This document shows positions 42,911 through 47,877 of a stretch of 64,000 nucleotides of DNA, piece by piece. The notes below the pieces were generated by a model. It made no database searches, had not been told where the DNA came from, and saw only the letters and a list, made by a program, of their open reading frames with translations. Position numbers and translations under genes: made by a program. The stretch spans positions 2,852,001 through 2,916,000 of the forward strand of contig NZ_CP115396.1 of NCBI RefSeq assembly GCF_027625995.1, read 5' to 3'. Position 1 is the stretch's first letter, and each line of letters begins with the position of its first letter. Source of the stretch: Hymenobacter yonginensis. GTDB taxonomy: Bacteria; Bacteroidota; Bacteroidia; Cytophagales; Hymenobacteraceae.

Positions 42911-45505
42911 TTATTCACTCACAGAAATATTGATACTGGTGTTGGTCGACTGGCCTTTGCCGGATTTGGCGCTGCTGCCCAGCAGCTTGCGGTATTTGTC
43001 GGCCATAGCCGCCGACTGCGGCTCGCCGTTCACCACCAGCCCTTTGTCGTTGAGCTGAAACATGAAGCTTTTGGCGTCTTTCTCAATCAGCCCGTCCTGG
43101 CGCAGCTTTTCCCGGATCTGGTCGGAGCTGATGCGTGGAGGGGCCGGGGGCGCCGGCACCGATGGCGCGGCAGGGGCAGCCGGTGCGCTTGGCGGGCTGG
43201 GCGGCGCCGGCAGGCTGTAGCGGCGGGCACTCGCGTTGCTCTGCTGCTGAATGTTGATGGAGCCGGTGGCGCTGAGCTTGCGGCCGGTCCGGTCTTCGTA
43301 GAACTTGCGGTACTTCTGCTGCACGGCGTCGGGCTGCTTTTTGCCGTTCACGGTAAGGCTGGTAGCGCTGAGCGAGAAGCTGTAGGTGTCCGGGTTCCGG
43401 ATCAGGCCATCACGCTTCAGCTCGCTGATCAGCGCCTGGCGCCATATTTCGTCTTTGGCGTCGCGGCGGGCCTGCTCCTCGTCGCGGCGGGCCTGGTCTT
43501 CATCCCGGCGCGCCTGGTCCTGGTCGAGTTGGGCCTGCATGGCGTCGCGGCGGGCCTGCATGGCATCCCGGCGCGCCTGGGCGGCGTCCTGGCGGGCCTG
43601 GGCCGCGTCGCGCAGGGCCTGCTCCCGGTCTTGGCCATACTGCTCCAGCATTCGGCGCTTTTCCTGCTGCACTTTCTGCAGCTCGTTGCGAATCTCGGCC
43701 CGCTGCTCAGCATTGAGGTGGCCGTTCTGCAGCTGCTCATTCAGCGCTCTTTCGGCACCGGCAAAGCGCTCATCCATCTCGTCCTGGTTGGCCCAGGGCT
43801 GGTCGCGCATAGCCTCGCCAGCCTCGGCCATGGCCAGGCGCGAGAGTTCCTCGGCGTCGGCGTCGGTGGGGGCGCGGCCGGCCAGCGCGGCGCTGCTCAT
43901 GCGCTGCGAAAGCTGCGCCATCCGCTCACGGGTGGCTTGGCGGCGGTCGGCGAGGGTGTTGCCACGGTTGGTCTGCTGGGATTTGGCGAGGGCCTGCTGG
44001 TAGGCGGGCAGCTCGCCGGCCGGCACCTTCTTGCCATCCACGTACACCTCCGAAATAGCGCCCTGCTCGTTTTTCACCACCACCGTCAGCCCCTTGATTT
44101 CGTTGAGGCGGGCCCGGCCGGATTTGGTGGACAGCTTGGGATTGGCCTGGCTGTACACCACCACCGTATCATCGGAGCCTGGCTTCAGCTCATTGCCGCG
44201 GTAGTTGACCGTCAGGGCCTCGCCTTCCGGATTCTCGTCGGGGCTGGTTTGCTCCAGCGCCTGTGCTTCGGCCTGGGTTTCCGTTTGCACCTGATTTTCT
44301 GCTTCTTCTTTGATCTGGCCTTTAGCAAACTGCTCCCGCAGCGCTTCCGCACCCTTGTTCACCACGGCCGTGCTGAACGAGGCGGCGCTCAGCGACAGCA
44401 CGGTGCTGGTCGTGAGTACGCCCACGCTCAGCAGCACCACGCAGGCCGCCCAGAACCCATCCGAAAACGTGGGCGCCGTGGCGCGGTGCTGCACTAGGCG
44501 GCGCACCCGCCCCAGCAGCGAGCCGGGCTGGCCGGCGGCCGCCATAGCCAGCCGCGGCGTGAGAGCCGGGCGGGTTGGGGCGTGTTGCAGCGTAGCCAGC
44601 GAGGCCAACGCCTGGGCCAGCACCAGTGAGTCGCCGCAGAGCTCGGTGGCCATGTCGTCGCAGCAGTTTTCGCGCTCGGTGCGCAGGCAGTTCGACAGGA
44701 ACCACACGGCCGGATGGTAGAAGAATAGGATTTCGGCCACCGACTGCAGCAGATTGAACAGGTAGTCGCGGCGCAGCACGTGAGCCAGCTCGTGGGCCAG
44801 AATAGCCTCCAGCTCGGCCCCCGACATGCCCGAAGCGGCACTCATAGGCAGCAGAATCACGGGTTTCAGCCAGCCTATCACCAGCGGCCCGGGCACCAGG
44901 CCCGAGGCCAGAATGCGCACCGGCTGGCGCAAGGCCGTGCGGGCCACCAGCGCATCGAGGCGGGTTTGCCACTCGGCGGGCAGCGCGGCCACCCGGTAGC
45001 GCCGCAGCCGTTGCACGTAGGCCAGGCCGCTCAGAAAGCGGAGCGTCATGGCCAGCATGCCCAGCAGCCAGGCCACCACCACCACCGGCATGTTGCGCTC
45101 CAGATACAGTTGGCCCGTGGTCAGCAGCTGGCGCAGCCGGCCGGGAGCCGGCGCGGCAGTTGCTCCCGTTTCAGAAGCTACGGCAGCAACATCAGTGCCC
45201 AACCCGGTAGCATCTACGCCCGGCAGCTCATCGGTTGGACTGCCGGCGGAATACGGCGCCTCCGTAGCCGGCGCGGCGCGGAACGTGCTGTAGTAGTAGC
45301 CCAGCGTGATGCCGCTCAGCAGCAGCAGTGTGAGCAGGGCGGCGGCGGCCACCTTGTAGCGCAAGGCGGCGGCGTGGCGGTGCAGCAGCATCAGCAGCGC
45401 GGCGGCGGCCAGCGCCACCAATGCGCCCTGCCACAACGAGTGCAGCAGCGTCCAGCCAAGGGCGCGCATCAGCGCCGGCGACCCAAATTGTTCAAGCAGG
45501 CTCAT
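42911..45505 (-). CDS. BlaR1-type M56 membrane metalloprotease with repeat tail
   Basis: 864 aa from the ATG at 45505, which overlaps the blaI stop by 14 bases, so the two are translationally coupled. Membrane helices at the N-terminus (ALVALAAAALLMLLHRH, AAAALLTLLLLSGITLGYYY) and near residue 140, then the zinc site HELAH near residue 238 and a last helix (FWAACVVLLSVGVLTTSTVL). The penicillin-binding sensor of BlaR1 is absent. The tail has a charged heptad stretch (ARRDAMQ units) and two related modules of about 60 residues (DGLI...VNG...KYRK...SINI). It probably senses an envelope signal and triggers cleavage of BlaI. Confidence 0.88.
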   Translation of the reverse strand: MSLLEQFGSPALMRALGWTLLHSLWQGALVALAAAALLMLLHRHAAALRYKVAAAALLTLLLLSGITLGYYYSTFRAAPATEAPYSAGSPTDELPGVDATGLGTDVAAVASETGATAAPAPGRLRQLLTTGQLYLERNMPVVVVAWLLGMLAMTLRFLSGLAYVQRLRRYRVAALPAEWQTRLDALVARTALRQPVRILASGLVPGPLVIGWLKPVILLPMSAASGMSGAELEAILAHELAHVLRRDYLFNLLQSVAEILFFYHPAVWFLSNCLRTERENCCDDMATELCGDSLVLAQALASLATLQHAPTRPALTPRLAMAAAGQPGSLLGRVRRLVQHRATAPTFSDGFWAACVVLLSVGVLTTSTVLSLSAASFSTAVVNKGAEALREQFAKGQIKEEAENQVQTETQAEAQALEQTSPDENPEGEALTVNYRGNELKPGSDDTVVVYSQANPKLSTKSGRARLNEIKGLTVVVKNEQGAISEVYVDGKKVPAGELPAYQQALAKSQQTNRGNTLADRRQATRERMAQLSQRMSSAALAGRAPTDADAEELSRLAMAEAGEAMRDQPWANQDEMDERFAGAERALNEQLQNGHLNAEQRAEIRNELQKVQQEKRRMLEQYGQDREQALRDAAQARQDAAQARRDAMQARRDAMQAQLDQDQARRDEDQARRDEEQARRDAKDEIWRQALISELKRDGLIRNPDTYSFSLSATSLTVNGKKQPDAVQQKYRKFYEDRTGRKLSATGSINIQQQSNASARRYSLPAPPSPPSAPAAPAAPSVPAPPAPPRISSDQIREKLRQDGLIEKDAKSFMFQLNDKGLVVNGEPQSAAMADKYRKLLGSSAKSGKGQSTNTSINISVSE
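43460..43620 (-). repeat. Degenerate 21-bp tandem repeats in the M56 gene
   Basis: Seven to eight units coding for seven-residue variants of QARRDAM or QARRDEE. The DNA repeats are imperfect but recognisable. They encode a long charged helix, probably a coiled coil. Confidence 0.7.
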
Positions 45506-45914
45506 CGGAGGAATCGTTGGAGGTGGAACGACGCTGTTGTTCGATTTCATTGAGCAGGCCCCGGATCTGGGCCAGCTCGTCGGAAGAAGTGGAGCGCGTG
45601 CCCAGCGCCTGCATCACCAGCTTCATGGCCGAGCCCCCGAAGGCGGCATCCACGAACCGGTCGAGGAGCAGGCCCTGGGTTTCCTCCTCGCGCACGGCAG
45701 CCCGGTACACGTGGGTTTTGCTGTCGTCTTCGCGCAGCACCAGAACCTTGTCCAGCATCAGTTGCAGGATCTTGAGTGTGGTGGTGTAGCCAACCTCGCG
45801 CTTCTGGCTCAGCTGGTCGTTCACGAACCGGACCGTGCTGGGGCCGTGCTGCCACAGCACCTGCAGTATCTCCAGCTCCGAGTCGGTGGGCTTGGGAATG
45901 GGTTTTTCACTCAT
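45492..45914 (-). CDS. blaI: BlaI/MecI family repressor
   Basis: 140 aa, ATG at 45914. Winged-helix fold: KPTDSELEILQVLWQHGPST, then VRFVNDQLSQKREVGYTTTL as recognition helix and KILQLMLDKVLVLREDDSKT as wing, and a C-terminal dimerisation part. BlaI proteins bind palindromic operators as dimers and are cut when the partner M56 protease is activated. Three matching palindromes lie directly upstream (45936-46009), so autoregulation is well supported. Not necessarily linked to beta-lactam resistance; no beta-lactamase is nearby. Confidence 0.93.
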   Translation of the reverse strand: MSEKPIPKPTDSELEILQVLWQHGPSTVRFVNDQLSQKREVGYTTTLKILQLMLDKVLVLREDDSKTHVYRAAVREEETQGLLLDRFVDAAFGGSAMKLVMQALGTRSTSSDELAQIRGLLNEIEQQRRSTSNDSSDEPA

Positions 45915-45935
45915 GAGTACAGGCGTTTGAGGTTC

Positions 45936-45951
45936 TACGATGATGTTCGTA
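45936..45951. promoter_or_regulatory. BlaI operator O1 (TACGA-N6-TCGTA)
   Basis: TACGATGATGTTCGTA, an exact palindrome in both 5-bp halves. It covers the expected transcription start of blaI, which would lie near 45948. Confidence 0.75.
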
Positions 45952-45954
45952 CTT

Positions 45955-45986
45955 CAAACATATACGAATGATATCGTAGATACAAA
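45955..45986 (-). promoter_or_regulatory. blaI promoter
   Basis: On the minus strand, TTTG at 45986-45983 (-33 box) and TATGTTTG at 45962-45955 (-7 box, full match to TAnnTTTG) are separated by 20 bases, close to the Bacteroidota ideal of 19. The ATG of blaI is 40 bases downstream of the -7 box. Confidence 0.75.
45963..45978. promoter_or_regulatory. BlaI operator O2 (TACGA-N6-TCGTA)
   Basis: TACGAATGATATCGTA, lying exactly between the -33 and -7 boxes of the blaI promoter. Occupancy would block sigma factor binding. Confidence 0.78.
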
Positions 45987-45993
45987 CTTAATC

Positions 45994-46009
45994 TACGATT
46001 TTTTTCGTA
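45994..46009. promoter_or_regulatory. BlaI operator O3 (TACGA-N6-TCGTA)
   Basis: TACGATTTTTTTCGTA, upstream of the -33 box. Centre-to-centre distances between the three sites are 27 and 31 bases, near three helical turns, so the sites face roughly the same side of DNA. Confidence 0.72.
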
Positions 46010-46025
46010 ATATCCATAGAGCAGC

Positions 46026-46055
46026 AAAAAAGCCGGCTGTAATAGCCGGCTTTTT
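46026..46055. terminator. Terminator after folB
   Basis: Stem AAAAGCCGGCT with AGCCGGCTTTTT and a 5-base loop, A and T runs on both sides. Downstream of folB (-) and upstream of the blaI operators. Confidence 0.85.
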
Positions 46056-46094
46056 ACATCATAACACTCTATCCAACAAGCACCTGCCATACCA

Positions 46095-46675: not shown

Positions 46676-47683
46676 CTAGATTTCGTCGAAAAACGATTTC
46701 TCGGCCGTTACGGCCGCGGCTTGCATCACGGGCTGATCATTCTGGCCGGGGTGCATGGGCTGTACCGGCTGCGGAATTTCTGGCTGCTCGGTGCGGCCGG
46801 GCCGCACGTCGGGCTGCACATCGGGGTTGGGGGCGCCGGGCACCGGGGAGCCGGGACGCTCAATTTCGGGGTCGGGCTGGTTGGGCTTATTAGGCTGGTT
46901 GGGCTGCTCGGGCTTTTCCGGCTGGCCGGGCTCGGGCTGCTGGCCGGGCTTGGGGTTGTAGGCGCCGGGCTGGGCCGTGGGGCGGGCCGCCGGAAAAGCC
47001 GGGGCCGAGCCGCCAAACGAAGCAGCAGAACCGCCGGCTACGGCCGCGGCCGACGAAGTAGAAGCAGTGGAAACGAACATTGGGGCAGGGTTTTCAGGTG
47101 AATCGGACGAGGTCCGGGTCACTTTTACGCTGGCTGCCCGCGAAAGGATGGCCGCCGTGCTGGCTTTGGGCCGGGCCTTGGCTTTTTCCACCTTATCCAG
47201 CGCATCGGAGGCCAGGTGGTGCAGGTCGCGCACGAGGCTGTCGAGCTGGGCTTCGAGGCGCTGGCACTCCTGGCCCAGGCCGCTCACTTCCTTCTGCATC
47301 TCGGCCACCGTTTTCTCGGCCTGCTGATAGGCGTCTTCCACCAGCAGGCGGGCTTTCTGGCGGGCGTCGGCCAGTAGCTGCTCGGCTTTCAGCTGGGCTT
47401 CGCGGATGCGCAGCTCGGCGTCGCGCTGGGCCTGCTCGGTAATGCTGTTGCCGGTGTCTTCGGCGGTTTTGAGGGTGCGGTAGAGGCTGGTTTCTACCTC
47501 GCGCATCTTGCTCACGTCCTGGGTGGCGTGGTCGAGCTTCACGCGCAACTCGCGGTTTTCGTCGCCCATCCGCTCCCACTGCTGCGAAAGGGTGAGCAGA
47601 AACGCCTGCACTTCGTCTTTATCAAGGCCCCGGAAGGCTTTTTCAAAGGTTTTCTGACGGATATCGAGGGCCGTAATTTTCAT
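46676..47683 (-). CDS. DivIVA-domain coiled-coil protein
   Basis: 335 aa from the ATG at 47683. Residues 1-35 (MKITALDIRQKTFEKAFRGL then DKDEVQAFL) are the DivIVA membrane-binding N-terminus; a long coiled coil runs to about residue 170. The last 120 residues are low-complexity and rich in Pro, Gln, Asn and Glu (EKPEQPNQPNKPNQP) and end in a short acidic motif, FFDEI. DivIVA proteins gather at curved membrane and organise growth or division. The disordered tail is unusual in length. Monocistronic. Confidence 0.82.
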   Translation of the reverse strand: MKITALDIRQKTFEKAFRGLDKDEVQAFLLTLSQQWERMGDENRELRVKLDHATQDVSKMREVETSLYRTLKTAEDTGNSITEQAQRDAELRIREAQLKAEQLLADARQKARLLVEDAYQQAEKTVAEMQKEVSGLGQECQRLEAQLDSLVRDLHHLASDALDKVEKAKARPKASTAAILSRAASVKVTRTSSDSPENPAPMFVSTASTSSAAAVAGGSAASFGGSAPAFPAARPTAQPGAYNPKPGQQPEPGQPEKPEQPNQPNKPNQPDPEIERPGSPVPGAPNPDVQPDVRPGRTEQPEIPQPVQPMHPGQNDQPVMQAAAVTAEKSFFDEI

Positions 47684-47877
47684 AGGAGTGGGGAGTAGAA
47701 GTGGGCTGGCCAGATGGATTCTGCCAGCAGGCACCCGCCGCGGCTTGGCGGCAACAGCCGTCGGACCGGTGGCCGGTTGCGCCATCTAAACGACGATGTG
47801 CCAACATCAGCATATATCAACCGGTCAGATGGCTCGCGCCGTCGGACCGGGACCAGAGTGACAAACCGTGCTGGCGG

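Follow-up and report, generated by a model that had tools for sequence, protein, structure and literature searches.

The blaI-M56 gene pair and its promoter

The window (the whole stretch of DNA that was analysed, 64,000 nucleotides long) carries on its minus strand a blaI gene whose 3' end is overlapped by the gene for an 879-aa metalloprotease of the M56 (BlaR1) type (Table 1), a PF03965 repressor gene and an M56 metalloprotease gene lying side by side as they do in the staphylococcal BlaI/MecI and BlaR1/MecR1 systems. Staphylococcal BlaI and MecI act through inverted-repeat operators and are autoregulated. The BlaI of the window spans positions 2-114 of the 115 in the PF03965 profile, which places it in the BlaI/MecI/CopY family, and its closest named counterpart, among the best 80 of 353 relatives, is that of Hymenobacter sp. 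BT190 (99% over 139 aa), Hymenobacter belonging to the Cytophagales of the Bacteroidota. It scores below the curated NCBIfam scores of BlaI_of_BCL (44 against 180 bits), BlaI_of_MRSA (19.9 against 250), MecI_of_mecA (23.1 against 250) and CopY_TcrY (38.2 against 121.95), and the C-terminal CXC metal motif of CopY is absent, the protein having, by reading, no cysteine at all. The protease carries HELAH, matching the HExxH motif of BlaR1/MecR1-type proteases, and reaches 80.1 bits against blaR1_generic, below the curated 400. A preliminary description of this DNA had called it a protease without a beta-lactam sensor, and this stands: Pfam returns protease domains alone (M56 and an overlapping M48 match), with no penicillin-binding or transpeptidase sensor. 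In this it differs from BlaR1/MecR1, as does the locus in that no beta-lactamase gene was seen, by reading, beside blaI-M56. The upstream neighbor of blaI is folB. Farther out, at 46676-47785 on the minus strand, lies a gene for a coiled-coil protein, presumably DivIVA-like as judged from the start of its sequence, whose tail is long and rich in proline.

Table 1. Features of the blaI-M56 locus, in window coordinates
Feature	Coordinates	Strand	Basis and remarks
M56 (BlaR1-type) metalloprotease gene, 879 aa	42911..45550	-	PF05569, 102.2 bits (cut-off 31); HELAH; overlaps blaI 3' end
M56 tail domain, second copy	42971..43132 (approximate)	-	homologous to C-terminus of f5 coiled-coil protein
M56 tail domain, first copy (L..DGLI...Y.F.L....L.VNGKKQ....KYR)	43280..43441 (approximate)	-	by reading
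blaI, helix class YTTTLKILQLM (residues 43-53)	45492..45914	-	PF03965, 80.9 bits (cut-off 22.6); Lys48 and Gln51 diagnostic
Proximal operator (putative)	45936..45951	none	exact match; over the expected transcription start, as judged from the -7 element
-7 element TATGTTTG	45955..45962	-	by reading; conservation of 90% or more at every base in 38 distinct promoters
Middle operator (putative)	45963..45978	none	exact match; occupies the -33/-7 spacer
-33 element TTTG	45983..45986	-	by reading; conservation of 90% or more at the last three bases (TTG) in 38 distinct promoters
Distal operator (putative)	45994..46009	none	exact match; precedes the -33 element
Terminator-like hairpin with A/T runs, after folB	46026..46055	-	by reading; bounds the blaI promoter region

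The palindrome TACGA-N6-TCGTA (hereafter the N6 site) occurs exactly three times in the window, all three upstream of blaI, while a first-order Markov model predicts 0.0086 exact matches for the window, and neither 400 shuffles of the window that preserved dinucleotides nor 5000 of the intergenic stretch 45915-46062 produced a single exact match. No further copy with fewer than two mismatches occurs anywhere in the window; the five remaining matches have two each, and the total of eight at up to two mismatches is a chance number (8.83 expected). When the whole window was scanned for 5-bp palindromes with gaps of 0-12, no other was repeated three times identically inside an 80-bp span. The canonical TACA-N2-TGTA operator is absent from 45915-46062.

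Read along the gene strand, the distal site is followed by TTTG, the middle site, TATGTTTG, the proximal site and the blaI ATG (45914-45912), the 20-nt spacer between TTTG and TATGTTTG containing the middle site. We take TTTG to be the -33 element of the Bacteroidota primary sigma type, and TATGTTTG presumably fits the -7 consensus TAnnTTTG. In the 38 distinct promoters on which the conservation figures of Table 1 are based, variation is seen within the N6 interiors and at most spacer positions; entry into this set required exact palindromes in the 31 + 27 arrangement, so that only the columns outside the palindromes are informative. The preliminary description had listed the same three exact copies and no others, with the middle one between the -33 and -7 elements and the third upstream of -33, and all of this was recovered, the absence of others holding for anything with fewer than two mismatches. 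It had also proposed that the spacings of 27 and 31 bp keep the sites on a similar helix face, which is borne out for the latter and not for the former: at 10.5 bp per turn, 31 bp amount to 2.95 turns, 27 bp to 2.57 and 58 bp to 5.52, so that the distal and middle sites share one face and the proximal site lies off it.

Our main reading, to which we would give a probability of about 0.9, is that the three palindromes are operators of the adjacent BlaI, through which it represses its own blaI-M56 operon until M56 removes it, and that the clade to which this BlaI belongs, distributed widely in Bacteroidota, reads TACGA-N6-TCGTA. BlaI dimers would sit at the middle site, between -33 and -7, at the proximal site, over the start of transcription, and at the distal site, just upstream of -33, and because these three promoter sites are occupied, the operon, we propose, would be held low, most likely by steric block of the promoter. 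Activated M56, its signal probably coming from the envelope, would remove BlaI and release the operon. We infer BlaI binding, repression and removal of BlaI by M56 and, for cells with several paralogs, insulation by the spacer. Cleavage of the window BlaI by M56 is suggested by analogy to Staphylococcus aureus, whose BlaR1 cuts BlaI directly, according to the accessible part of the source (PMC9834060).

Conservation of the palindromes upstream of blaI

The nearest genome compared (G001, 5 Mb) shares 28% of sampled 31-letter words with the window, and statements on whole genomes rest on this genome and its relatives. It has three exact N6 sites, all at a blaI with the YTTTLK recognition helix of the window gene (class A); the reversed-word control in the same genome also counts three. 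The middle operator of the window departs from that of G001 at a single base of the N6 interior. That the lineage of the window might have a wide regulon was considered and is ruled out for this genome, the exact site being found only at blaI. These observations also bear on whether the palindromes may be a repeat element or a structured RNA with no role in repression. Three similar short repeats within a single intergenic stretch would invite such an interpretation, to which we give next to no credence, as the N6 interiors differ freely, the exact element is not found elsewhere in the 5 Mb of G001, and most of it would fall upstream of the expected transcript.

The arrangement is maintained far more widely. 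In the genus of G001, the nearest one, 119 of 120 genomes possess the exact tandem pair, and none the reversed pattern; the remaining genome (G612) also has the three sites, with a single mismatch in the middle copy. The loss of the palindromes from close relatives that keep blaI, which had been named as evidence that would count against their role, was thus looked for and not seen. Of the best 80 of 353 relatives, BlaI loci from genome_contigs that include records of Hymenobacter, Rufibacter, Pontibacter, Flexithrix and Saprospiraceae, 79 show two or more exact sites in the 300 bp before the gene; the one that does not (L078) is a second, divergent BlaI of H. rubripertinctus. At two loci, L073 and L081, as many as five exact sites precede a single blaI, grouped as three and two.

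How many of the three sites serve as operators is a separate question. One alternative is that only one or two do, the third being a remnant or an aid to cooperativity. Most class-A loci of the phylum carry one or two exact sites (none at 3 loci, one at 22, two at 28 and three at 8), the 27-bp spacing is out of helical phase, and of the 59 Hymenobacter-named loci within the best 80, 13 have fewer than three sites (12 with two and one with none). However, the remaining 46 of these 59 hold three exact sites while the N6 interiors drift, and this suggests selection on all three pairs of half-sites in these loci. We therefore consider the alternative unlikely, though deserving of some weight, and retain the reading in which all three sites are operators of BlaI.

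Surveys of the phylum from either direction agree with this reading. A search for tandem pairs, blind to proteins, matched 39 of 395 genomes, the reversed pattern scoring zero in every row listed. After merging of the listed places, these amount to 45 clusters, 36 of which lie upstream of a BlaI gene and 9 do not, the 36 including one cluster some 450 bp from BlaI (in G321) and one at a BlaI of another class (in G014). Class-A BlaI is present in 37 of the 39 genomes with tandem pairs, the two others being G014 and G023, and in 57 of 390 genomes overall. In the opposite direction, class-A orthologs were picked from 390 genomes by protein similarity to the window BlaI alone, 61 of them scoring at least 103 bits and the rest no higher than about 73. 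An exact site lies within 600 bp upstream in 58 of the 61, and in 60 if one mismatch is allowed. The scan of related genomes for TACGA-N6-TCGTA before BlaI genes, proposed in the preliminary description, has in this way been carried out on orthologs chosen by protein, and the comparative data support its view of the palindromes as BlaI operators around the gene's own promoter.

Operator type, recognition helix and spacer

A comparison of the BlaI-family genes of 119 class-level genomes (69 loci, or 68 in a first pass lacking L199) connects the type of operator with the type of recognition helix. Counts of gapped palindromes upstream returned TACGA-N6-TCGTA for the YTTTLK genes, and AACTA-N6-TAGTT, TACGA-N5-TCGTA and CTACA-N2-TGTAG for the non-YTTTLK genes. 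In this first set, the N6 site was present at 10 of 11 class-A loci (all but L186), TACGA-N5-TCGTA (the N5 site) at 9 of 10 class-B loci, defined by the helix YTTxAS (all but L174), ACTA-N6 at 24 of 39 loci of the NTVST type, and TACA-N2 at 6 of 7 of the LLKRM type. In 118 further loci, for which the class rules derived from the first set were written as patterns into the test itself, class A showed the N6 site at 47 of 48 loci (three of which, L240, L260 and L262, coincide with positions already counted in the first set), N5 or ACTA at none and TACA-N2-TGTA at one, while ACTA-N6 was found at 23 of 29 NTVST-type genes. The exact ACTA-N6-TAGT is missing from 15 of 39 and 6 of 29 NTVST-type loci in the two sets, respectively. 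A mixed remainder showed ACTA-N6 at 32 of 40 loci, including 29 of 30 genes with the helix YTT[VI]MT, and N6 at 2 of 40; this remainder took in five relatives of class A whose motifs are altered (L248, L255, L264, L268 and L272), two of which have N6 sites. Reversed-word controls gave 0-1 per helix class.

Class B shares with the window gene the half-site TACGA/TCGTA, but has a spacer of N5 and Ser48 in place of N6 and Lys48. A protein-led search for this class, in which 30 loci of a longer list were fetched, returned 21 of the YTTxAS and 9 of the NTLST type. All 21 YTTxAS loci possess the N5 site, ten of them in two copies 19 bp apart, and none possesses the N6 site. With the 9/10 of the first set, 0/1 of the further loci and these 21/21, and with 8 places common to the sets, the N5 site is present at 22 of 24 distinct class-B loci (L174 and L323 lacking it) and N6 at none. 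Of the 21 genomes with a fetched class-B BlaI, 16 also hold class A. One example is G001, in which two BlaI paralogs have a common half-site and spacers differing by 1 bp. As in the window, the class-B gene of this genome has its own M56 partner, placed next to it, in this case with a Plug match in its product. Its N5 site, at 2085-2099 of L342, lies 8 bases before the start of the ORF, site and gene both falling within 2085-2473.

The residue at position 48, which corresponds to Thr47 of MecI in an ungapped alignment, follows the operator type closely when labels are confined to loci with a single operator type: it is Lys at 59 of 59 N6 loci, Ser at 28 of 28 N5 loci (22 distinct), and Thr at 78 of 78 ACTA-N6 and 6 of 6 TACA-N2 loci. 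Position 51 holds Gln at every N6 locus. Outside the labelled set, the BlaI at L131 (G014) combines a YTTIMS helix, with Ser at the place of Lys48, with two upstream N6 sites (TACGACGATCATCGTA), so that Ser48 is not always paired with N5. In a tree built with the helix masked, 60 N6 rows fall into one set of 65 (five without a site) with 96% local support. As they form this single set, N6 arose about once, and the fit of helix and operator holds at the level of clades and does not represent many independent events. From these sequence comparisons the N6 type resembles a single ancient switch that has been retained while the proteins diverged greatly, rather than the outcome of repeated convergence.

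The preliminary description had gone further and proposed TACGA/TCGTA as a distinct operator class. It does differ from the TACA/TGTA of staphylococcal BlaI/MecI, as the helix of the window protein (YTTTLK..Q) differs from that of MecI (PKTIRT..T), but BlaI operators other than TACA/TGTA were already known in Clostridium thermocellum, where, in the portion of the source available, they consist of GTCTAT and GACTAT repeats bound in four-protomer arrays (PMC8457756). The BlaI_0696 and BlaI_1845 of that species resemble the window system in their small regulons, in ordered arrays of several sites at each target, in autoregulation, as proposed for the window, and in operators beyond plain TACA/TGTA, and thus multiple sites and a divergent half-site each have a precedent; the same portion describes two pairs of inverted repeats, demonstrated by DAP-seq and EMSA, as against three sites read from sequence in the window (PMC8457756). 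CopR/CopY are related repressors whose operator likewise extends to 16 bp, but whose consensus, RNYKACANNTGTMRNY, has a TACA-type core and which carry the metal-binding CXC (PMC7253601, available part). No paper on a TACGA/TCGTA BlaI operator or on BlaI operators of Bacteroidota was found among the matches listed, by titles and starts of abstracts of open papers, which is weak evidence of absence given that it covers open papers and listed matches, and the accessible sections of PMC12565901, PMC12596196, PMC10470040, PMC4757040 and PMC8265638 contain no comparable operator.

Sites away from blaI and a possible envelope regulon

Tandem pairs were also found in 38 viral contigs, and no BlaI-like ORF is present in the stretches fetched, so other proteins probably use the palindrome too; exclusive use by BlaI is thereby ruled out. 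Eight of these contigs (L376, L377, L380, L384, L386, L396, L402 and L403), mostly 5-10 kb in length, share a TACGAGATTTRTCGTA-like pair 23-24 bp apart, perhaps the operator of another repressor. The viral pairs would be in line with a proposal that at the window locus, too, a regulator other than BlaI binds the palindromes and happens to control blaI-M56, as would the pairs in G014 and G023, which have no class-A BlaI, the pair of G014 being at a BlaI of another class. However, the operator tracks the class of BlaI and not the species, each class having its own spacer even in the 16 of 21 class-B genomes that also hold class A, and in G001 the N6 site is found at the class-A blaI only. This proposal appears very improbable to us, and we continue to regard the adjacent BlaI as the protein that would bind.

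Other genomes of the genus of G001 have extra tandem clusters, 15 of which were new among those listed, and all 15 were fetched. Fourteen precede large outer-membrane proteins, as judged by reading (L339 is the exception). When Pfam was run on six of the 14, all six matched OMP_b-brl_3 (PF14905) along with a carboxypeptidase-regulatory domain, and five also Plug; the barrel assignment of the remaining eight is by reading. Pairs at L095 and L120 also precede outer-membrane barrel proteins, the pair at L096 does not, and pairs away from BlaI in other genomes, at L123 and L125, precede proteins without a Pfam match. Judged by these targets, the evidence suggests that the signal of the blaI-M56 system comes from the envelope.

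A further connection is presented by four genomes of family f5 (L084-L087, sites 1501 and 1523), in which the pair precedes a coiled-coil protein with, by reading, a signal-peptide-like start. The C-terminal domain of this protein matches the tail of the Hymenobacter M56 proteases when the two alignments (4 and 53 sequences) are compared by hhalign (probability 97.4, E 1.5e-11), so that one group has the domain as an extension of its protease, and another has it in a protein of its own, controlled by the same type of putative operator. Neither version is recognized by Pfam above the cut-off, the f5 domain having been run for three of its four sequences. A known sensor in the M56 tail was sought and rejected: no Pfam match exceeds the cut-off, and against the PDB list a profile of the tail gave nothing beyond hits at chance level or to proline-rich sequences, with a best E of 0.019.

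Taken jointly, these data allow a broader reading, which we hold tentatively and at somewhat less than even odds. Several BlaI-M56 channels would operate in one bacteroidotal cell, kept apart by a code in which TACGA half-sites go with Lys48 or Ser48, ACTA and TACA half-sites go with Thr48, and a 1-bp difference in spacer separates two paralogs that share a half-site; the channel of the window would be an envelope-sensing system lacking a beta-lactam sensor, its tail, probably periplasmic, would be an undescribed domain that also ends an apparently secreted coiled-coil protein with the same operator, and its wider regulon in relatives would consist of outer-membrane barrels. The furthest-reaching part is the fit between helix and operator, with spacers that differ by one bp in paralogs found together in one genome. 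Annotation usually treats BlaI-type regulators as repressors of penicillinase and assigns them the staphylococcal operator. Across the phylum, the recognition helix largely predicts the operator, and one residue and one base pair of spacer separate the paralogs, providing a testable model of how a winged-helix family shifts its specificity and avoids cross-talk, while the motif itself can be used to find candidate regulons of BlaI-M56 systems.

Two neighborhoods were noticed among the extra sites, the first of them recurrent. At L328-L330, L332, L334 and L341, a gene that by reading is MarR-like adjoins the extra operators and the barrel protein. At L096 and L136 (G388), the 330 or so bases nearest to a three-site cluster hold no large gene, and a gene for a LytTR response regulator follows.
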